DNA of 64,000 bases from Pseudanabaena sp. FACHB-1998. GTDB taxonomy: Bacteria; Cyanobacteriota; Cyanobacteriia; Pseudanabaenales; Pseudanabaenaceae. The stretch spans positions 62,001 through 126,000 of the forward strand of contig NZ_JACJQA010000008.1 in the NCBI RefSeq assembly GCF_014696355.1. The letters are read 5' to 3'. Made by a program: the position numbers and the translations under genes. Numbering within the stretch: the stretch's first letter is position 1; the number at the start of each line of letters is the position of its first letter. Below are positions 5,273 through 22,098 of this stretch, one piece after another. The notes under the pieces were generated by a model. That model was not told where the DNA came from, made no database searches, and was given only the letters and a program-made list of their open reading frames with translations.

Positions 5273-8068
5273 TCATTCTTTTGATCCTTCCGTTGAAGGG
5301 TTGTTATTCAGCAAGGCTTCCAGATCGGCAAATTCATCGATTTCATCTGACACTCTAGATTTTGCATCTTTTTCCCCCGTAGCTTTATTAGCCTTGTCAG
5401 CAATGTTTAATTCTTCAATTTTGGCAAGAAACTGATCGACCAGAGACTCCTGCACCAAATATTTCGCCCCCTCTTCGGAAGCGATCGCCTCTATATTTGG
5501 CTCAGTATTTGGCTCAGTGTTTAAGACATTAACCTGAGTCTCCATCGGTACTTCCATTGACTGAGGGATGCTATTTTCCAAATTATCTTCAGAGATCAAG
5601 ACCTCTTCAGCGATTTCAGTGGCTTGTTCGGATATTGCTGCAATTTCAACAATTTCTTCCACTTCTTGATTACTACTTTCTTCCTCTTGGATTAATTCAG
5701 CAATTAGGATCTCTTCCGCAATTTCAGTGGCTTGCTCGGATATTGCTGATATCTCCATGATATCTTCAACCTCTTGATCTTCAAGCTTTTGGTCTTCAAC
5801 CTGTTCATTTTGTGCCATTTCCGTTATCTCTTCACTAGGTTCTTCTAAATACTGTCTCAAGATATTTTCAACATAAAAATTAAAGGTAACTAATTCATCT
5901 AGCTCCTCATCAAAATCTGGAGAATATTCTTCTTCAGTTGGCTCATCTATAGATTCTTGAGTAAGCGCCACATCCTCATCTGCATCTGATTTAGACTCTT
6001 CGCCTGCATCAAAAACGTCAGAGATTATATCTGCGGTCTCTATAGAGGTTTCAGATATAATCTCCTCAACCTGTGATTCTTCGGCAAAACTATCAACTTC
6101 CGCTTTTTCTGGTTCTGTCGCCTCAGGATTAGTGGTATTCGCGCTAGCAGGTTTTACTGGCTTACCAAATCCATAATTTTTTTGAGCAAAACCTTTTTTG
6201 CGAGCTTTTTTAAGAAAATGTATAGCCTTACTATCAACTTTTGAGGTAGCGTCAACAACTGCTTCAGATAATTCTTGCTCATAAGAATCCGAAGATTCTA
6301 CAACTTGATCAACTAAATCATTATCCACAACTAAAACATTTTCAGGTGCTACTGCATCTGGTTGTTCGGGTAAATCATTACTTAATTCTTCTGTAACTGA
6401 AAAGCTTTCAGAAACTTCTGGCGATTCGGTGAGTTCCGAACTTAGCAAGACTCCATCTTCTAACTGCTCGGCTGTGTCGGAGATGAATCCAGAAATATCT
6501 TCTTCAGCAATAATTTTTTCATTTACTAATCCTAACTCAGGATTTTCATTGATATCTGCCAAATCTATCTCTAGAGAATCGCTAGGGCTTTCAGTCTGAG
6601 GTACATCTAGACTGTTTTCTAGATCTGTTTCTAGAAATGCTTCATCATCGTGGCTATCACTAATGACTTCTTGAATATCTAGCTCAACTTGAAGTTCCGC
6701 TTCTAATTCTAAAGTTATATCAACCTCTACCTCTAAGTTAATATCTTCTGGAGGTTGAGCGATCGCTTCAGGCTCCTCTACAAATTCTTCGACCTCTACC
6801 TGAACATCTTGTAGTTCTGAACTTGTGATTTGTTCTTCAGACTCAGGCTCAAAGACATCTGCAATCGATTCACTGATAAATTCTTCAGGTTGATTATTAC
6901 TGGTTTCTACAGCTTCATCACTAGAATCAATAATAATTGAATTTTCATTTAAATTTTCTTCGATAATCCCAGTAGATGCTTGCGATTCACTGATTAAATC
7001 TACAACTTCAACTTCAGGTTCGTGCCCAGATACTTGCGATTCACTGGTTAAATCTACATCTTTAACTTCAAGATCTGGTGAGGGTAGTTCTAATTCGCTG
7101 ATTTCATCGTTATTTTCAGCTTCTATCTCTTGTGGATTTTCCAATACTTGAGAATCTTGAGAATCGGGAATTTCGATTAAACTTTCGATGGGTTGCTCAA
7201 GTGAATCTATTGATTCGTCTACAATTTCAAGATTACTTTGAATTTCCTCTACTACATTTTCGGATTCTTCAGGGTCTGAAATTTCAAGATCATTTTGGAT
7301 TTCCTCTACTATATTTTCGGATTCGGATTCGTCAGGTGTTTCAGCTAAGAGGGTATCGTTTATTTCTTTTTGTCTATCAATTACTACAATTGCAGCCTCT
7401 GGCTCATCTTCAAAAAACTTTAATAGCTGGGGCGATCGCCAACCAATAGTTGTAAAACTATTTTTAATTTTTTCCACAGGAAATGGTTGCAGATTAGACA
7501 ACTCAGACGCAGCCGTAAGCTTAATCCTTAAAGCCGAAACTCCCGATTGCAGCAAAATATTGCTCAATAAAAAACAAACCTCAGCCCATAGGATGCCAAA
7601 TAATCTCAGCCCCGCGGGAAATGGCGCGATCGCTTGAGCGAGTGGTGCAGCAATATAGATTTTGCAAAAAATGGCACTCATTACCAAGGCGATCGCGATC
7701 GCCAACCATCCCGTAACATGCCATCCGTTGCGTTGCTGTTTAATCAGTGTTAATACCCGACGCTCATTTTCGCTTAAGTCTGCGGACGACTTAGCGATAA
7801 ACCAAAGACTAAAGGGCGAAAATGGCTGTTGCCACTGGAGCCATGCACCTAAAGCGATCGCTGGAAATCCTAGCAACAAAATCTCTAACCAAGTAGGAAA
7901 TACTGGATCACCAACTGCTAATCCCGCCATACTCCAAGCTAATAACCAAGGCACACCCGCAGTTAGCGCAATATTCCCCCAAATAAATGGATGATTGCTC
8001 ACAAAGTTACTATCACTTAAAGCAAAGCCACTTAAGGACTGGGAATTAGGGGATTTCATATATAACAC
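5273..8068 (-). CDS. Membrane protein with very long acidic low-complexity tail
   Basis: Resembles the cyanobacterial group named low-complexity tail membrane proteins; no biochemical role is known to me. Residues 1-180 hold about four hydrophobic segments (for example PWLLAWSMAGLAV, ILLLGFPAIALGAWL, WLAIAIALVMSAIFCKIYIA). After about residue 215 the protein is dominated by Glu, Asp, Ser, Ile and Val, giving a very low predicted pI. The tail carries internal repeats: AISEQATEIAEE occurs twice and SENIVEEIQNDLEI twice. A short basic patch (FLKKARKKGFAQK) interrupts it around residue 615. The start could be the fourth codon (MKSPNS). The next gene upstream is potD on the same strand, about 100 bp away, so co-transcription is uncertain. 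Confidence 0.8.
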   Translation of the reverse strand: MLYMKSPNSQSLSGFALSDSNFVSNHPFIWGNIALTAGVPWLLAWSMAGLAVGDPVFPTWLEILLLGFPAIALGAWLQWQQPFSPFSLWFIAKSSADLSENERRVLTLIKQQRNGWHVTGWLAIAIALVMSAIFCKIYIAAPLAQAIAPFPAGLRLFGILWAEVCFLLSNILLQSGVSALRIKLTAASELSNLQPFPVEKIKNSFTTIGWRSPQLLKFFEDEPEAAIVVIDRQKEINDTLLAETPDESESENIVEEIQNDLEISDPEESENVVEEIQSNLEIVDESIDSLEQPIESLIEIPDSQDSQVLENPQEIEAENNDEISELELPSPDLEVKDVDLTSESQVSGHEPEVEVVDLISESQASTGIIEENLNENSIIIDSSDEAVETSNNQPEEFISESIADVFEPESEEQITSSELQDVQVEVEEFVEEPEAIAQPPEDINLEVEVDITLELEAELQVELDIQEVISDSHDDEAFLETDLENSLDVPQTESPSDSLEIDLADINENPELGLVNEKIIAEEDISGFISDTAEQLEDGVLLSSELTESPEVSESFSVTEELSNDLPEQPDAVAPENVLVVDNDLVDQVVESSDSYEQELSEAVVDATSKVDSKAIHFLKKARKKGFAQKNYGFGKPVKPASANTTNPEATEPEKAEVDSFAEESQVEEIISETSIETADIISDVFDAGEESKSDADEDVALTQESIDEPTEEEYSPDFDEELDELVTFNFYVENILRQYLEEPSEEITEMAQNEQVEDQKLEDQEVEDIMEISAISEQATEIAEEILIAELIQEEESSNQEVEEIVEIAAISEQATEIAEEVLISEDNLENSIPQSMEVPMETQVNVLNTEPNTEPNIEAIASEEGAKYLVQESLVDQFLAKIEELNIADKANKATGEKDAKSRVSDEIDEFADLEALLNNNPSTEGSKE

Positions 8069-12385: not shown

Positions 12386-13192
12386 ATGGAACAAGAGTCA
12401 AGTGACAAGAGCCCTGATAGTCTTAATAGTCCCGACCAAGTAAAATCATCTAATACAAATGATCCAGCAAATGATCAAGAGGCTTTAGATGAAACCTTAG
12501 AGGTTAAGCATCACAAAATTCGGTATGGGTTACTAGCGATATTAGTTGGTAGTGGTTTATTAGTTTTTGGGCGATCGCTTATAGATGGCAATATAGGCAA
12601 GCCAACACCATTTAATTTCCCTGCCCAAATTGATTTTGCCCCACAATCCATGAAGATTTCTGAAGCAAAACCACCTCAACCAATTATTGATGAAAAAGAA
12701 TTTTTTGGTCGATCAAAGTATCTATTTGGCGAAAGATATAGCTATTTGATAGATAACACCCCAATAGATATTGAATTACGTTATTTAGTCGGTACTGAAG
12801 GCGATTTAGTACCATTTGTAAAAGAGCTGGGAAACATTGATATTAATGATGAGCAATTGCGTACTCAAAGCGTACGCAAAGACCCTATTGGCTTTCATGT
12901 GATCCTCTCAAGTCAAAATCGAGCCTATTTGACTTCCTGCATTAATCCACGCGGTATTTCAACGGTTACTAGGGAGCAATTTGATGACAATGGTAGTGAG
13001 CAAGCCATTGATAAAGATGTAGTTATTGGTTGGCTACTGGGACAAAAGGAGCTACGCGATCGCCGTTGTTTATGGACTTTGATTTCTACACCAATTTCAT
13101 CGGAAAGCGATCGCGAAGCCGCTAATCAAAAGTTAGAGAAAATTTGGATTTCATGGTATGAATGGTGGAAACCTCGTTTCCCAGCACTATAA
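12386..13192 (+). CDS. Unknown single-pass membrane protein (intact copy of a duplicated gene)
   Basis: No family recognised. Residues 1-45 are polar and Ser/Asp/Asn rich, residues 48-66 (GLLAILVGSGLLVFGRSLI) form one membrane segment, and the remaining 200 residues should lie outside the cytoplasm. Two Cys (in TSCINPRG and RRCLWTLIS) could form a disulphide. The C-terminal half has a compact look (FHVILSSQNRAYLTSCI) and ends in an aromatic-rich WISWYEWWKPRF. The gene is divergent from the ABC-2 permease across only 60 bp. Its 3' 385 bp and following hairpin are repeated almost exactly at 14706-15209, where the copy is broken. Confidence 0.75.
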   Translation: MEQESSDKSPDSLNSPDQVKSSNTNDPANDQEALDETLEVKHHKIRYGLLAILVGSGLLVFGRSLIDGNIGKPTPFNFPAQIDFAPQSMKISEAKPPQPIIDEKEFFGRSKYLFGERYSYLIDNTPIDIELRYLVGTEGDLVPFVKELGNIDINDEQLRTQSVRKDPIGFHVILSSQNRAYLTSCINPRGISTVTREQFDDNGSEQAIDKDVVIGWLLGQKELRDRRCLWTLISTPISSESDREAANQKLEKIWISWYEWWKPRFPAL

Positions 13193-13521: not shown

Positions 13522-14283
13522 ATGAATAATGTCCAAAAGTTATTTGTATCAGCAGTTGGTTTAGCTGCTCTGTCCGTGGGTACTGCTAAACCTGCTGATG
13601 CAGCATATCTTACTTATTTTGGTCAAGATCAAGGACAAGGCGAATCTGTTCGCTTAGCTGCTACTCCCCAATCTAATCAAGCACGTAACAATTTCTTCTC
13701 AAATTTAGTAGGTGTCGGTACAGAAACATTTGAATCTAAAGCTATTGGGGCAACAGCACCTATCGTTGCTGCTTTTGGTGCTGATTTTGCAACTATTACT
13801 GGTAGTGGTTCTATTGAAGCAGTTACTCCTGGCACAACCAATGGTGTTGGTCGCTATGCAATTTCTGGCAGCAAGTTTTACGAAGTTAGTGGAAATTTTA
13901 CACTCACCTTTAATACTGCTCAAGCCGCTTTTGGATTCTATGGAGTTGATATTGGAGACTTCAATGGTCAAGTTACCTTAACTTTTAATAAAGTTACTGG
14001 TGGAACCCAAACATTTACAGTTCCTACTACACAAACATTGGGGGGTGGGTCACTTTATTTTGGTGTCATTGGTACTGATACTAATGATCTGTTCTCATCA
14101 GTTACATTTGGAAATACATCATCAGGAGTTGATTTCTTCGCATTTGATGATTTCAGCATTGGTAGAAAGGAGCAAGTTCGTGCTGTGCCTGTGCCTGGTG
14201 TTGCTGCGGGTATTGTCCTGGCTGCGGGTATTTTCAGTGGTAAGCAACTAAGAAAGCGTAAGAATCAAGCAAGTAAAGCTTAG
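13522..14283 (+). CDS. Secreted protein with PEP-CTERM-like sorting tail
   Basis: Exported protein of 253 residues. Residues 1-28 are a signal peptide ending ADAAY. The body is rich in Gly, Thr, Phe and Asn (FGFYGVDIGDFNGQVTLTF, then FFAFDDFSIG), a beta-sandwich pattern common in cyanobacterial PEP-CTERM proteins. The tail has the tripartite sorting form: VPVPG, a hydrophobic helix VAAGIVLAAGIFSG, then a basic end KQLRKRKNQ. VPVPG differs from canonical PEP, so an exosortase-type or related protease would need variant specificity. A strong ribosome binding site precedes the ATG. It lies between two direct copies of the duplicated segment, next to surface genes. Precise function unknown. Confidence 0.8.
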   Translation: MNNVQKLFVSAVGLAALSVGTAKPADAAYLTYFGQDQGQGESVRLAATPQSNQARNNFFSNLVGVGTETFESKAIGATAPIVAAFGADFATITGSGSIEAVTPGTTNGVGRYAISGSKFYEVSGNFTLTFNTAQAAFGFYGVDIGDFNGQVTLTFNKVTGGTQTFTVPTTQTLGGGSLYFGVIGTDTNDLFSSVTFGNTSSGVDFFAFDDFSIGRKEQVRAVPVPGVAAGIVLAAGIFSGKQLRKRKNQASKA

Positions 14284-14597: not shown

Positions 14598-15111
14598 TGC
14601 AAGAAGATTCAACGGAAAAGATACCTGATAGTCAGGATGGGTTACTAGCGATATTAGTTGGTAGTGGTTTATTGGTTTTTGGGCGATCGCTTATAGATGG
14701 CAATATAGGAAAGCCAACACCATTTTAGTACCATTTGTAAAAGAGCTGGGAAACATTGATATTAATGATGAGCAATTGCGTACTCAAAGCGTACGCAAAG
14801 ACCCTATTGGCTTTCATGTGATCCTCTCAAGTCAAAATCGATCCTATTTGACTTCCTGCATTAATCCACGCGGTATTTCAACGGTTACTAGGGAGCAATT
14901 TGATGACAATGGTAGTGAGCAAGCCATTGATAAAGATGTAGTTATTGGATGGCTATTGGGACAAAAGGAGCTACGCGATCGCCGTTGTTTGTGGACTTTG
15001 ATTTCTACACCAATTTCATCGGAAAGCGATCGCGAAGCCGCTAATCAAAAGTTAGAGAAAATTTGGATTTCATGGTATGAATGGTGGAAACCTCGTTTCC
15101 CAGCACTATAA
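14598..15111 (+). pseudogene. Broken copy of the 12386-13192 membrane protein gene
   Basis: It opens with MQEDSTEKIPDSQDG and then the same membrane segment LLAILVGSGLLVFGRSLI. Compared with the intact copy it lacks about 100 nt in the N-terminal region and exactly 193 nt after KPTPF (equivalent of 12614-12806). The second deletion is out of frame and gives an immediate stop. From 14706 on it matches 12807-13192 almost base for base (few substitutions, for example Ala to Ser in SQNRSYL). An ATG at 14776 could restart a 111-residue peptide, but without the membrane anchor it is unlikely to work. Confidence 0.88.
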
Positions 15112-16207: not shown

Positions 16208-17899
16208 ATGAGCCAAGCGCCAAATAATTCAGGGGAATCCGTATGGAAACGTTTACGCCATGGCAATATCTCTTCCTGTGAAGAAGCTTTACAGTTTTTG
16301 GTTGATCCTCATGGCGACTTGCACCTAAATTGGCTAGATCAAGATTTAAGCTATAGATTTTTTCGAGAATTTGAAGATCGGAATATGTTGCCGCCAGTAA
16401 TTCCATTGCTACTATGGCGCAATTGTTTTTATATCGGTAGTCCCCAGACTTTAAGTGACGAGCATATTAAGCTAATCAGCGATCGCACTTTGACTGATAT
16501 TAAAGTCATTAAAATTTCTACTGACAGCTATCGCAAATGGTTCCGCCGTCAAAATATCCCTAATCCCAACGAAATCCATTCTGCACAGCCTATCAATCCG
16601 CTTACGGGGGAAACCGAGCAAGTTGATATTGGTGAAGTTACAGATTTATACCTATCCCAAGCAGTTGATCAGACTCGCCGCATTAATGCGCTGATCTCGA
16701 TCGCCTTACAACATCGAGCCAGTGATATTCACTTAGAGCCAACACCTAAAGGTTTACGGGTACGCTATCGCATTGATGGCATTTTACGAGATATTAAAAC
16801 TCTGCCCCTTGAGATTAGTCGCAAAATTATTGTGGCGTTGAAGGTGATGTCTGACATGGATATTGCCGATAGTCGCCGCCCTCAAGATGGACGCATTGGT
16901 CGAGCCTACACAAGCGACGAAAACCTAAGTCTCAATCTGGATATGCGGGTAAGCACTTTACCCTGTGTGTGTGGAGAGAAGGCGGTGATCAGATTATTAC
17001 CTCGCGATAATCCTTTTTCTAATCGTTTAGAAAGCTTAGGCTTTAGCGATCGCGCCCTTAAAATTTATGACAGTTGGCTAAGGCAACCCCAAGGCTTAAT
17101 CATCATGACGGGCCCCACAGGTTCGGGTAAAACCAGCACTCTTTATACTAGTTTGCAGGCGATCGCTCAGGAGCATGTCAACGTGATCACCGTGGAAGAT
17201 CCCGTTGAATATATTTTGCCAAACATTACGCAAACTCAAGTTTGCGAACCCGCAGGCATGACATTTGCCGCAGGACTACGCGCTATTCTCAGGCAAGATC
17301 CCGACATTGTGATGGTGGGTGAAGTCCGCGATCCTGAAACTGCGGAAACAGTGGTTCGAGCCGCCCTAACTGGACACCTAGTATTATCGACTATGCATAC
17401 CAACGATGCTGCAAGCGCGATCCCCAGACTCAAGGATCTAGGTCCCGACCCCGGACTGATTAGTGATGCACTTCTCGGCGTAGTCGCCCAGCGTCTCCTT
17501 CGCAAAAACTGCCCCCATTGTTCGATTTCTTATCATCCCACTCCCTTAGAACTTCAATCCCTAAGACTGGAGCGAGAAGATATTGATCCCAGTCGTTGGC
17601 GCAAAGGTAAAGGCTGTGAAAAATGTTTCTTTACGGGCTACATTGGGCGGGAAGCAGTAGTCGAACTAATTGATATTGATGATGCCTTTCGCCATATGAT
17701 TTACGAAGGCACAATCTCCCAAATGAATCGTTATCTCAATGAAATTGAGTTTAATTCTTTCCGAGTTGCGGCGATCGACAAACTTAATTTAGGAATAACT
17801 ACGGCAGAAGAGGTTTTACGAGTTTTACCCCGTAGCTCTTTACATCGAGTTAATTCTCCCGTTTCGCGCCAAGCCCATATCAAAGCCATCAATGCATAA
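16208..17899 (+). CDS. GspE/PulE/PilB-family secretion ATPase
   Basis: Hexameric ATPase of type II secretion or type IV pilus assembly. The catalytic core spans residues 150-500: Asp boxes in ASDIHLEPTPKGLRVRYRID, Walker A GPTGSGKTS near residue 302, VEDPVEY, Walker B in DPDIVMVGEVRD, and the His box STMHTNDA. A four-Cys zinc site is formed by CPHC near 435 and CEKC near 470. Residues 1-130 do not show the usual PilB N-terminal domain clearly, and 563 residues is about 100 short of typical PilB, so this may be a paralogue of the main pilus motor. It follows the HpsJ-like gene by 140 bp. Confidence 0.87.
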   Translation: MSQAPNNSGESVWKRLRHGNISSCEEALQFLVDPHGDLHLNWLDQDLSYRFFREFEDRNMLPPVIPLLLWRNCFYIGSPQTLSDEHIKLISDRTLTDIKVIKISTDSYRKWFRRQNIPNPNEIHSAQPINPLTGETEQVDIGEVTDLYLSQAVDQTRRINALISIALQHRASDIHLEPTPKGLRVRYRIDGILRDIKTLPLEISRKIIVALKVMSDMDIADSRRPQDGRIGRAYTSDENLSLNLDMRVSTLPCVCGEKAVIRLLPRDNPFSNRLESLGFSDRALKIYDSWLRQPQGLIIMTGPTGSGKTSTLYTSLQAIAQEHVNVITVEDPVEYILPNITQTQVCEPAGMTFAAGLRAILRQDPDIVMVGEVRDPETAETVVRAALTGHLVLSTMHTNDAASAIPRLKDLGPDPGLISDALLGVVAQRLLRKNCPHCSISYHPTPLELQSLRLEREDIDPSRWRKGKGCEKCFFTGYIGREAVVELIDIDDAFRHMIYEGTISQMNRYLNEIEFNSFRVAAIDKLNLGITTAEEVLRVLPRSSLHRVNSPVSRQAHIKAINA

Positions 17900-18468: not shown

Positions 18469-18519
18469 CAAGAAAAATTTTGAAATCTTTGCTTTGCAAA
18501 GATTTCAAAATTTTTCTTG
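18469..18519. repeat. Perfect 51-nt hairpin with conserved flank (family C), TTT loop
   Basis: Arms of 24 nt starting CAAGA around TTT. The right flank TTGGTTTGGGTTTAAGCGC is shared with the hairpin at 61164, while the stem interior differs at several compensated positions. Confidence 0.95.
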
Positions 18520-18780: not shown

Positions 18781-20907
18781 ATGCTTTTAATCATAGTTGG
18801 CACTGAAGAATATCAATTCAATGCTTTGATGCATTGGATTGAACTCCTTTTAAAGTATCAACTCATTAAAGAAGAAGTCCTAGTTCAATATGGATCTTCC
18901 ACCTATTTACCCGACGGAGCTAGAGCTTACCGGAAGCTATCAGATCAAGAGCTTCTAGCTTTTATTGATAGTGCTAGTTTGATCATTAGTCATTGTGACG
19001 AAGGGGTTGCTCAGTTTTTAGAAGATAAAGATACTCCCTATGTTCTCGTACCAAGGTTACAGAGATTTCGAGAGCATATTGACAATCATCAAATGGAAGT
19101 TGCTGATGATTTTGAGAGACGGGGTATCGCGATCGCCCGCTCACCCGGAGATTTAGTCAAATTCATCAAATTGCAGCAGACATCAGAAGTCGTGCCTCAA
19201 GTTGACGAAACTCAACTATGCGAATATCTTAAAGACAAATATCAAGCCAACAAATTAATGTTAATTTGTTCCTCTGGTGGATATTTTCGCTATATGCAGA
19301 GCATTCAAGAATTTTGGAAAAATTACCCAAATCGGGTGTGGGTTTCAGTCAAAAATATTACCACCGAGCGGGAAATCACGGATATTCATCGATATTGGGC
19401 TTATATTCCCGTCAAAGATAACCTTATAAATATTATTCGTAATTTTATCTTAGCGTTTAAAGTAGTACCACGACATTCTCCCGATTTAGTGGTTTCTACT
19501 GGTTCAGGATTTGCTATTCCCTATTTATTGATCGCTAAATGGATTTGCCATAGTAAAGTTGTTTTCATAGAGTCAAAAGCTCGCTTCCAAGATATTGGCT
19601 TACCTGCATGGGTATTAATGAAAATGCGTGTTTTGGATTTGATTGTGGTAAGGAGCGCCGCCATTGCAGATCGCTATCCGCAGTCGGTTTATATTCCTGT
19701 GACCGATGGATTTACTAACGATCAGCGAGATTACAAACAAGCCACCATTGCAACCTTTGATGAAGTTGCCTTTATTTATAGTCCCGAAAGATTAGAATTT
19801 TCGACAGCCAGAGAATTCTTAAGTGATTTTCAGTCAATTTGCAATCCTGACGAATTTTATAGAAAGATTGTGATTGATATGAGTCACACGACCTATATGG
19901 ATGGTGCTGGGCTTGGAGTTTTAACTAATTGCCTCAAGCTTGCGCGAACAAATGGAACTGTACTATTACTTTGGAGTGTCAGTGAAGCTGTCAGTTCCCT
20001 TATAACGCTCTCCTCCTTAAGTAAGCTATTTGTGATTGAACAAACCTCTAACAGTTTCCGCTTTTCCGAGAAAATTCAACGCAATAGAGTGAGCAATATT
20101 ACTAAGTTCGGCTTATTGCTATACCGTACCCAAAAACTTCTTAAGAGAATTCCTGTATTTAGAATCTTTTATCCCATATTAAAATTTTTCTTCCCTTGGG
20201 TTGATATCGATCCCGGCGTACCCGTCCATCCCTCAGTTCGCAATCCCACTAAGAGACTAATTGATATTGTTGGCGCTCTAATAGGTTTAAGTTTTACCTT
20301 CATCTTTTTTATTCCTATTGCCCTAGCCATTACTACCGAAAGTAAAGGAAATGTCTTATTTGGACAAATTCGATGTGGACTGTTAAGTAAACCTTTTCGT
20401 ATTTGGAAATTTCGCTCAATGGTACGAAATGCGGAAGAGTTAAAAATCAAAGTAGAAAATGAAGTTACGGCGGGTAGACGAGCAGATGGTGATACCGAAG
20501 GTAATAGTGCTAATGATAAATTCTTTAAAAATGCTGATGATCCTCGCGTGACGAGAGTTGGCAAATTTTTACGAAAGACAAGTTTGGATGAATTTCCTCA
20601 ATTTTGGAATGTATTAATTGGTGATATGAGCTTAGTTGGAACTCGCCCACCCACTTTTAATGAGATTAACTCCTATGAACTAGAAGTGGAATATCAAGAT
20701 GAACGCTATACAGAATGGAATCGTCTGGATGTAAGACCGGGAATTACAGGAGTTTGGCAGGTAAATGGACGTTCGAGCGTAAGAAATTTTGCTGAGGTAG
20801 TCAACTTTGACCTTGAGTATCGCAACAATTGGAGTATTGGGTATGACCTTAAATTAATTGTGCAAACTATTTTGGTTCTATTTGATAAAAACAATAAAGC
20901 AATATAG
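18781..20907 (+). CDS. Four-domain fusion: PssE-like + PssD-like glycosyltransferase, STAS, priming sugar transferase
   Basis: Residues 1-140 match PssE/Alg13-type GT28 C-terminal domains (IIVGTEEYQFNALMHWIE, QYGSSTYLPDG, VLVPRLQRFREHIDNHQMEV). Residues 155-315 match PssD/Alg14 (LICSSGGYFRYMQ, YWAYIPVKDNLINIIRN, STGSGFAIPYLLIAKW). Residues 320-427 are a STAS domain (VIDMSHTTYMDGAGLGVL), with Gly where SpoIIAA-like proteins have the phosphorylated Ser. Residues 488-708 are a polyprenyl-phosphate sugar-1-phosphate transferase (one membrane helix, KFRSMVRNAEE, DEFPQFWNVLIGDMSLVGTR, RPGITGVWQVNGRS). It could start a lipid-linked exopolysaccharide repeat and add the second sugar. The PssE loop SHCDEGV deviates from the usual SHAGPGS. 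Next to HpsJ-like and PilB-like genes; not obviously in an operon with trpD. Confidence 0.85.
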   Translation: MLLIIVGTEEYQFNALMHWIELLLKYQLIKEEVLVQYGSSTYLPDGARAYRKLSDQELLAFIDSASLIISHCDEGVAQFLEDKDTPYVLVPRLQRFREHIDNHQMEVADDFERRGIAIARSPGDLVKFIKLQQTSEVVPQVDETQLCEYLKDKYQANKLMLICSSGGYFRYMQSIQEFWKNYPNRVWVSVKNITTEREITDIHRYWAYIPVKDNLINIIRNFILAFKVVPRHSPDLVVSTGSGFAIPYLLIAKWICHSKVVFIESKARFQDIGLPAWVLMKMRVLDLIVVRSAAIADRYPQSVYIPVTDGFTNDQRDYKQATIATFDEVAFIYSPERLEFSTAREFLSDFQSICNPDEFYRKIVIDMSHTTYMDGAGLGVLTNCLKLARTNGTVLLLWSVSEAVSSLITLSSLSKLFVIEQTSNSFRFSEKIQRNRVSNITKFGLLLYRTQKLLKRIPVFRIFYPILKFFFPWVDIDPGVPVHPSVRNPTKRLIDIVGALIGLSFTFIFFIPIALAITTESKGNVLFGQIRCGLLSKPFRIWKFRSMVRNAEELKIKVENEVTAGRRADGDTEGNSANDKFFKNADDPRVTRVGKFLRKTSLDEFPQFWNVLIGDMSLVGTRPPTFNEINSYELEVEYQDERYTEWNRLDVRPGITGVWQVNGRSSVRNFAEVVNFDLEYRNNWSIGYDLKLIVQTILVLFDKNNKAI

Positions 20908-20937: not shown

Positions 20938-20986
20938 ATAAAAAGCAGAGATTAAGTCCCTTTGGGGCTTAATCTCTGCTTTTTAT
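20938..20986. terminator. 49-nt terminator hairpin, TTT triloop
   Basis: Arms of 23 nt with one G-U pair around TTT; the right arm ends in a T-rich run (GCTTTTTAT). It follows the sugar transferase gene by 30 bp. Confidence 0.85.
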
Positions 20987-21051: not shown

Positions 21052-22098
21052 ATGGAACAAAACTGGTCTCAATTGCTCAAGCAACTTATGAATAGACAAA
21101 GTTTAGCCAATGAGCAGGCGACAGCATTAATGCAAGGATGGCTAGAAGGCGCGATCGCTCCTGAGCTATCAGGAGCAATTTTGACGGCTTTGCAGTTTAA
21201 AGGGGTTGAGGCTTCGGAACTAGCGGCTATGGCTAATGTATTACAATCTCAAAGTGAAGGACAAAAATTTAAAGAAAAGTTAGGGCATATCGTCGATCGC
21301 TCTAAACCTCTAATTGATACCTGTGGAACTGGAGGGGATGGAGCTTCGACTTTTAATATCTCGACTTCTGTTGCTTTTGTCGCCGCAGCAGCAGGTGTTG
21401 CCGTGGCAAAGCATGGCAATCGAGCCGTATCAAGCCGCTCTGGTTCAGCAGATGTATTAGAAGCGATTGGAATTAACCTTACAACTTCAACAGAAAAAAT
21501 TTATGAAGCACTTCCTGCGGTGGGAATTACCTTCTTATTTGCCCCTAACTGGCATCCTGCCATGAAGGCAGTGGGTGCAATTCGTAAAAGTTTAGGGGTT
21601 CGCACAGTTTTTAATCTCATTGGTCCTTTAGTAAATCCCTTACATCCTACTGGTCAAGTTCTAGGTGTTTATAACAAGAACCTTACTCATACCGTAGCGG
21701 AAGCTTTACGGCTACTTGATCGCCAACAGGCTGTAGTTTTGCATAGTCGCGAAGGCATGGATGAGGCGGGATTAGGGGATCTAACTGATATCTCGTATCT
21801 TGCTAATGGAATTGTTACAGAAGATGCTCTCAACCCTGAAGAATTAGGTCTATCTGCTGCTCCCCTCGAGAGTCTCAGTGGTGGCAATGTGGCTGAGAAT
21901 GCAGAAATTCTACGCAATGTGTTACAGGGCAAAGGAAGTAAGGCGCAATCTGATTGTGTGGCGCTTAATGCTGGCTTAGCTCTTCGCATTGGCGGTGCGG
22001 CTAATAGCTGGGCTGAAGGCGTTAAATTAGCTTCCACGATTATTCAAAGTGGCGCAGCATGGAACAAAGCTGAAGCTTTGGTTAATTTCCTTAAATAA
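21052..22098 (+). CDS. trpD: Anthranilate phosphoribosyltransferase
   Basis: Second step of tryptophan synthesis: transfers phosphoribosyl from PRPP to anthranilate. The signature GTGGDG (residues 92-97) binds PRPP, followed by [33 protein letters not shown] and the metal-binding DE in [12 protein letters not shown]. Length 348 is standard. A ribosome binding site (AGAAGGAA) precedes the ATG. Single gene, not part of a trp operon here, as is usual in cyanobacteria. Confidence 0.97.

Follow-up and report, generated by a model that had tools for sequence, protein, structure and literature searches.

A PssE-PssD-STAS-phosphoglycosyl transferase fusion in Pseudanabaena and a possible kinase-controlled gate on polysaccharide priming in cyanobacteria

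The window analyzed here is a 64,000-nucleotide stretch of Pseudanabaena sp. FACHB-1998 (contig NZ_JACJQA010000008.1, positions 62,001 to 126,000 of the forward strand), and our subject is a gene within it, at 18781-20907, whose product joins two glycosyltransferase-like halves, a STAS domain and a monotopic phosphoglycosyl transferase (PGT). The original prediction, made from the DNA letters alone, described these four parts as a single chain, and indeed the open reading frame (ORF) is one intact chain of 708 residues with no internal stops, in which the Pfam domains follow in that order and the AlphaFold2 folds agree. In window coordinates, the gene and its parts are as follows.

18781-20907, + strand: whole gene, PssE-like + PssD/Alg14-like + STAS + PGT, 708 residues (ORF list, Pfam, NCBIfam, AlphaFold2)
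18781-19206, + strand: PssE/Alg13-like half, residues 1-142, GT28 C-terminal-like (Pfam PF04101; NCBIfam PssE 8.8e-17, under cut-off)
19249-19701, + strand: PssD/Alg14-like half, residues 157-307, MurG N-domain fold (PF08660; VIA-align Z 14.7 to 3s2u MurG)
19282-19284, + strand: codon of Tyr168, at the position of the GGH-motif His in relatives (alignment)
19729-20055, + strand: STAS domain, residues 317-425 (PF01740; VIA-align Z 16 to RsbV in the RsbV/RsbW complex)
19903-19905, + strand: codon of Gly375, where STAS proteins have their phosphorylatable Ser (alignment)
20068-20205, + strand: helical linker, residues 430-475 (alignment, gap lengths, helices in the AlphaFold2 model)
20230-20889, + strand: monotopic PGT domain, residues 484-703 (PF02397; Z 17-19 to WbaP/PglC)
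20587-20592, + strand: Asp603-Glu604, the PGT dyad (conserved in alignment)

All four domains scored above their Pfam cut-offs: Glyco_tran_28_C at residues 1-130 (28.8 bits), Alg14 at residues 214-305 (36.5 bits), STAS at residues 328-423 (45.1 bits) and Bac_transf at residues 491-701 (PF02397, 208 bits against a curated cut-off of 27). The profiles thus confirmed the STAS and PssE parts, the two that the original prediction had considered might fail to match. The NCBIfam PssE and PssD models were placed as expected at 61.4 and 70.6 bits, both under their equivalog cut-offs (120 and 110), and by these cut-offs the two halves are kin of that family that are not assignable as PssD and PssE themselves. 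A WelK-type glucuronosyltransferase model (NF046028) likewise reached 92.1 bits against an equivalog cut-off of 400, and residues 4-137 aligned with positions 171-307 of its 319, in agreement with a swapped order of the two halves. When the Protein Data Bank was searched with the family profile, the C-terminus matched WbaP and PglC, and the middle matched TM1442 and SpoIIAA.

The AlphaFold2 model of the 708-residue chain had a mean predicted local distance difference test score of 81.2 and a predicted template modelling score of 0.59, a modest value at which we claim no arrangement of the domains relative to one another. VIA-align matched residues 157-307 to the MurG N-domain (Z 14.7), residues 317-425 to the kinase-bound forms of SpoIIAA and RsbV (Z about 16), and residues 481-703 to WbaP/PglC (Z 17-19). 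Structure prediction, which the original prediction had proposed as a check, therefore supports the PssD, STAS and PGT parts, while the PssE half had no VIA-align row of its own and was visible only within long Foldseek alignments to MurG. By domain score and fold the window protein is a monotopic PGT, predicted to transfer a sugar 1-phosphate to polyprenyl phosphate, and its Asp-Glu pair (D603 E604) is presumably the PGT catalytic dyad; the activities of the other parts are predictions of the same kind. Its STAS domain has the fold of RsbV/SpoIIAA, and its phosphosite reads DGAGLG (D374, G375), confirming the earlier observation that the phosphorylatable Ser is replaced by Gly, here Gly375.

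A STAS-PGT profile was used to search 386 cyanobacterial genomes and, in addition, 38 genomes from the order to which the window belongs, scoring up to five candidates per genome (up to ten in the kinase scan below), and the figures given here cover the matches listed. Identical proteins were counted once, so that counts refer to distinct proteins, not genomes. Loci L216-L235, which are short copies of loci covered again, were excluded from the counts, as was L202 (genome G304), whose STAS-PGT was lost by a simple ORF caller; two full-length places, G195:C120 and G155:C790, lie outside the set analyzed. The set comprised 110 stand-alone STAS-PGT proteins, 46 E-D-STAS-PGT proteins (E and D denoting the PssE-like and PssD-like parts) and one E-STAS-PGT protein. 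Frames of 709-775 residues holding the whole STAS-PGT were present in 25 of the 26 genomes of the window's genus, the exception being G411, which is 82% complete, and also in two other members of the family, G390 and G415; in a third relative, G386, the fused frame is cut by the contig end (L274). Among the matches listed, the four-part fusion is a lineage-specific arrangement of the window's family (Pseudanabaena and its relatives). The search for the same domain order in other cyanobacteria, suggested with the original prediction, thus yielded 46 distinct proteins from many assemblies, which rules out for practical purposes the possibility raised there that a frameshift or assembly error joins separate genes; no support for such an error was found, and we regard its probability as negligible.

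In a tree of the shared part (quick search, midpoint root), the 46 fused proteins formed one group with a Shimodaira-Hasegawa-like approximate likelihood ratio (SH-aLRT) support of 98. Within it are two paralogue groups, A and B, each with 22 rows; the window protein falls in A. The E-STAS-PGT protein, encoded at 6038-7456 (- strand) of locus L175, has 473 residues and comes from another cyanobacterial family; it paired with the unfused protein of L181 (SH-aLRT 100), which suggests that a PssE part was added to STAS-PGT on two occasions, this second fusion being apparently independent. A gene of the kinase family described below adjoins it tail-to-tail, at 5523-5981 (+ strand). In the G415 protein (L247) no Pfam GT28_C domain was found at E 0.01, though the custom profile assigns it an E part. 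The gap between STAS and PGT had a median of 49 residues (8-51) in fused proteins and 10 (1-23) in stand-alone ones.

In the Nostocales and some other cyanobacteria, pssD, pssE and STAS-PGT are separate genes that run in one direction: for 15 of the 110 STAS-PGTs, both E and D are encoded on the same strand no more than three genes upstream, and for 4 more an E gene is. The order in the operon is D, E, and the order in the fusion is E-D, so the fusion did not arise by simple loss of stop codons. Inverse Alg13-Alg14 fusions have been reported from Entamoeba and Dictyostelium (PMC8993221). Since the unfused relatives form an operon in some cyanobacteria, a single machine of one pathway is plausible for the family, and to this extent the original prediction of one machine building the first two sugars gains support, although the copy in the window is a different matter, as described below.

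The residue that follows the conserved Asp of the STAS domain, which we take to be the phosphoserine of SpoIIAA/RsbV, was Ser in all 110 stand-alone STAS-PGTs and in the E-STAS-PGT fusion; at L010 the site appears as DSAG in the alignment. Among the 46 fused proteins the same residue was Ser in 37, Thr in one and Gly in eight. Seven of these eight Gly proteins, including that of the window, form one clade inside group A (SH-aLRT 99), and the eighth is the G415 protein.

Genes for an RsbW-type kinase frequently accompany the stand-alone STAS-PGTs. In a Nostoc operon (L017), a gene for a 158-residue HATPase_c_2 protein (PF13581) lies directly 3' of STAS-PGT and is followed by one for a lone STAS protein with the site DSSG. 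At L324, a kinase, a lone STAS protein and a response-regulator-SpoIIE phosphatase are all encoded beside STAS-PGT, with the phosphatase gene on the opposite strand, and a PP2C-type phosphatase gave a match in 7 of the regions L116-L275. With a kinase profile that, like the STAS and other profiles, was built from the same gene sets that were later counted with it, a same-strand kinase gene was found at position +1 in 35 of the 110 stand-alone STAS-PGTs and at +2 in 4 more (39/110). In contrast, no kinase gene lay within +3 of any of the 56 STAS-less PGTs from 49 control loci, where the stretch included one or more downstream genes for 55 of the 56 and several stretches were short; one of the 49 control loci holds such a kinase elsewhere. 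The spacing between the kinase and STAS-PGT genes was -11 (an overlap) to +20 nucleotides in 28 of the 39 linked pairs, and the linked loci L123-L206 (33 loci) span 20 genera and 11 families by hand count. Raw matches placed two further kinase genes, outside the counts, about 35 nucleotides 3' of the STAS-PGT of L202 and about 460 nucleotides 3' of that in G195. Glu53, Asn57 and Gly91 were invariant in 16 aligned kinases and Asp89 nearly so; we assume that these four residues have catalytic roles as in SpoIIAB.

At the level of genomes, 86 of the 89 for which a full-length STAS-PGT was listed have the kinase family, compared with 34 of the remaining 297 (Fisher p about 2e-53), an association that is weak evidence, being confounded by phylogeny and genome size. 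The three genomes that have a STAS-PGT and lack the kinase are all from a single genus, with DSSGVV or DSSAII as their STAS sites. The linkage between genes (39/110 versus 0/56) lends support to the regulatory role that the original prediction had suggested for the STAS domain, although no kinase gene was found beside the fused proteins themselves in the stretches covered. The same pairing could carry a signal in the reverse direction, in which the STAS domain of the membrane enzyme would titrate the RsbW-type kinase and so report the presence or load of priming enzyme to a sigma factor or another target of the kinase. The closeness of the kinase genes would fit this, as would the match of the STAS part to SpoIIAA and RsbV as bound to their kinases, but no sigma-factor gene was noticed in the neighbourhoods viewed, in which no search was aimed at sigma factors, and we consider this direction quite unlikely.

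The comparison of the two paralogue groups bears on what the window copy itself may do. Where group B and the unfused partners share conserved columns, group A differs from them at 24 of 50 in the PssD part, compared with 3 of 29 in the PssE part and 5 of 92 in the PGT part. The His of the GGH motif in the PssD part is replaced by Tyr in 21 of the 22 group A proteins (Tyr168, giving GGY, in the window) and by Ala in the other one, and it is kept in 22/22 of group B and in 16 of 17 operonic PssD proteins. Replacement of this His in Agl24 and MurG left activity abolished or extremely low (PMC8993221), and by analogy the original claim that the protein builds the first two sugars probably fails for the window copy. 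The sister copy in the window's genome keeps both DSSG and GGH and, judged by these residues, would be the better candidate for the second-sugar step. The Asp-Glu dyad of the PGT is kept in 22/22 of group A and in 110/110 of the stand-alone STAS-PGTs. Over pairs with usable dS, the median ratio of nonsynonymous to synonymous substitution rates (dN/dS) was 0.10 for E, 0.14 for D, 0.08 for STAS and 0.05 for PGT in group A, and 0.07, 0.06, 0.10 and 0.05, respectively, in group B; all four domains are under purifying selection.

These comparisons also bear on the possibility that the protein is simply one membrane machine for the first two lipid-linked sugars, in which STAS docks or dimerizes and the kinase is uninvolved. 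The fusion of two steps, the shared operon of the unfused parts, and the retention of GGH, the PGT dyad and the site Ser in paralogue B are all in keeping with such a machine; however, the kinase linkage, which is seen with STAS-PGTs and not with STAS-less PGTs, and the retention of the phosphorylatable Ser in all stand-alone proteins point to regulation, and the window copy has GGY. We regard this possibility as unlikely.

The surroundings of the two groups differ as well. Directly downstream of the fused gene, and in its direction, 15 rows whose sites are DSSG or NSSG have genes for a Poly_export protein and then a Wzc-like protein (GNVR 24.5 bits, under the cut-off of 27.7); the gene at +3 encodes a Wzy/ligase-like membrane protein, recognized by eye, and that at +4 a GT4 glycosyltransferase. 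In most rows paralogue B heads a run of polysaccharide genes. None of those polysaccharide genes is among the recurrent neighbours of group A, and the window's copy is solitary. Since its members have kept the PGT, have no such neighbours and have lost the GGH His (and also the Ser in the clade of the window), paralogue A is most likely a priming enzyme that has escaped the phospho-switch and lacks normal second-step activity. The same losses could instead be the first steps of decay in a paralogue that no longer matters, with only B being of consequence: the GGH His is gone in 22/22 and Gly is at the site in 7/22 of group A, departures are concentrated in the PssD part, where dN/dS is 0.139 in A against 0.057 in B, and polysaccharide genes are missing nearby. 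Nonetheless, the median dN/dS of 0.05-0.14 in every domain, the intact PGT dyad in 22/22 and the conserved neighbours make decay very improbable. Around the gene in the window the following features were recorded.

16208-17899, + strand: T2SSE (PilB-type) ATPase gene, a relative of which lies two genes upstream in most rows of group A
20941-20983, + strand: terminator-like hairpin 3' of the gene
21052-22098, + strand: downstream gene, same strand, at +1 in 17 of 22 group A rows

The downstream gene is presumably TrpD-like (trpD). A promoter scan gave 9 matches compared with a shuffle mean of 9.4, and thus no excess. Upstream of the gene, at 18472-18516, there is a perfect 21-base inverted repeat with a 3-base loop, which is single-copy in the window's genome even when as many as 3 mismatches are allowed, with no repeat family found. 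Farther upstream, a segmental duplication links 12520-13104 with 14632-15023 (300 nucleotides at 99% and 101 nucleotides at 93% identity, 1.9-2.1 kb apart), through which the last part of the ORF at 12386-13192 occurs again in that at 14776-15111; the gene between the copies, at 13522-14283, encodes a secreted-looking protein with a hydrophobic and basic C-terminus and no Pfam match.

Taken together, these data suggest the following account, to which as a whole we give a probability of roughly 0.6. The family is one of cyanobacterial polysaccharide-priming enzymes in which a STAS domain precedes a monotopic PGT on the same chain. An RsbW-type kinase would bind the STAS domain and phosphorylate its conserved Ser, thereby deciding on synthesis of the first lipid-linked sugar. 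Competition or resetting would come from an RsbU-type phosphatase and an RsbV-type STAS protein, so that partner switching would act on an enzyme instead of a sigma factor. In the window's family, PssE and PssD of the next transferase were fused, in swapped order, ahead of STAS, probably keeping the two steps stoichiometric and adjacent. The fused gene was then duplicated. Paralogue B keeps the active-site and switch residues; paralogue A keeps the PGT and has lost the GGH His, to which the clade of the window adds loss of the phospho-Ser. A would most likely be a PGT no longer switchable by phosphorylation, with a GT28 half that is structural or has changed its function. The architecture, the fusion, the kinase linkage of the unfused relatives, the residue losses and the selection are observed here; that the kinase acts on STAS, and thereby on priming, and what activity each part has, are inferred, and our guess that the phosphorylated state is the off state follows from descriptions of HmpV and SypA as active when unphosphorylated (PMC8256260).

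Several observations weigh against this account. No kinase gene was found near any of the 46 fused proteins within the stretches around each gene, so that a cognate kinase for the window's group is only a guess; the window's genome has an unlinked kinase of this family at C33 (177 bits) and a pair of a lone STAS protein and a response-regulator-SpoIIE protein at C23 (L284), while in G405, a genome of the window's genus that is 95% complete and has the fused protein, no family kinase was found at E 1e-12. Among the stand-alone STAS-PGTs, 71/110 have no kinase gene within +3, including a clade of 44 rows. The kinase family is also present in the 34 of 297 genomes without a listed full-length STAS-PGT, and it occurs beside lone STAS or phosphatase genes, indicating that it has other clients. 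The operonic kinases of the Nostocales read WGC where others mostly read GRG. The link between absence of the kinase and an altered site is not clean, because G080, of the same genus as the three kinase-less genomes, has the kinase and yet carries a DSSGVV protein (L198), although its kinase adjoins its DSSGIG protein and not the DSSGVV one. The site of XssP, discussed below, reads DSAAIV and departs from DSxG, and the reading of GGY as lost activity is an analogy only.

The single domains and the STAS-PGT pair are known, and as far as we searched the four-part fusion and the kinase linkage appear to be new: among the matches listed in the open-licence literature, we found no description of either a kinase-linked STAS-PGT or the four-part fusion. 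The original remark that there was no characterized example therefore holds for the fusion, but not for STAS-PGT. A tblastn search found a STAS-PGT (STAS + Bac_transf) on plasmid pSYSM of Synechocystis PCC 6803 (L325, 11983-12936), which we take to be XssP because it adjoins genes for a NACHT-NTPase and two response regulators, where xssQ, R and S are expected, and because of the published xssA-P order; its locus tags differ from those in the xssP papers. XssP is termed the priming enzyme of synechan (PMC8205485, PMC13125312), and the xssP mutant no longer formed blooms and had its exopolysaccharide accumulation suppressed (PMC8205485). It resembles the family in having STAS + Bac_transf and 53% identity to a Nostoc STAS-PGT over 94% of it, and differs from the window protein in lacking the PssE/PssD part and in its site; no kinase is annotated directly beside it on the plasmid. 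By word count, STAS occurs in neither of the two synechan papers (PMC8205485, PMC13125312), and the idea that XssQ is a STAS regulator was not borne out, as it is described as a STAND-type protein (PMC8205485). A second known relative is all4160 of Anabaena PCC 7120, which a review describes as a glycosyltransferase with an N-terminal STAS domain (PMC8256260) and which is named among the genes needed for heterocyst envelope polysaccharide (PMC4390870); the likeness is to the published description, which states no fusion to PssE/PssD.

The N-terminal part recalls Alg13/Alg14, PssE/PssD and MurG/Agl24, in which there are likewise two halves of a GT28-type GT-B enzyme, whereas in the window protein the order of the halves is inverse, they are fused to STAS and PGT, and the GGH His is lost. 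Compared with the pssD-pssE-STAS-PGT operon, the fusion shows an assembly line for lipid-linked sugars welded to its regulator, and the natural Ser-to-Gly paralogue offers a ready-made uncoupled variant.

The nearest regulatory parallel is HmpU-HmpV-HmpW of Nostoc punctiforme, a set of phosphatase, STAS protein and serine kinase that acts in the motility of hormogonia and in their polysaccharide, for which the output target of HmpV is described as undefined (PMC8256260, PMC6495340). Unlike in STAS-PGT, the STAS domain there is a separate protein, which is not reported to act on a PGT. In six loci (L311, L314, L318, L319, L322 and L323) a kinase gene lies beside one for a PP2C-type phosphatase (phmmer; receiver domain by eye), and four of the six add a lone STAS gene; these are HmpUVW-like modules, and STAS-PGT is not next to them. 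Whether partner switching gates the PGT that commits undecaprenyl phosphate to an exopolysaccharide, with STAS-PGT as the missing output of an HmpV/HmpW-type system, and with Pseudanabaena having fused the gate and freed one paralogue from it by the Ser-to-Gly change, is in our estimate an even bet.

If true, this would be a post-translational gate on slime synthesis through a STAS domain built into the PGT, and the main value of the finding lies in this testable regulatory idea. How bacteria control their use of limited shared substrates at the priming step has been posed as a question in work on Myxococcus xanthus, where EpsW-EpsZ provides a case of a signalling protein that controls polysaccharide synthesis at the PGT after translation (PMC12802240). 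EpsW-EpsZ differs from STAS-PGT in pairing a separate response regulator with a large monoPGT, with neither STAS nor serine kinase, and beside it the kinase/STAS-PGT gene pairs stand as a direct, testable candidate for control at the priming step and for the target of HmpV.

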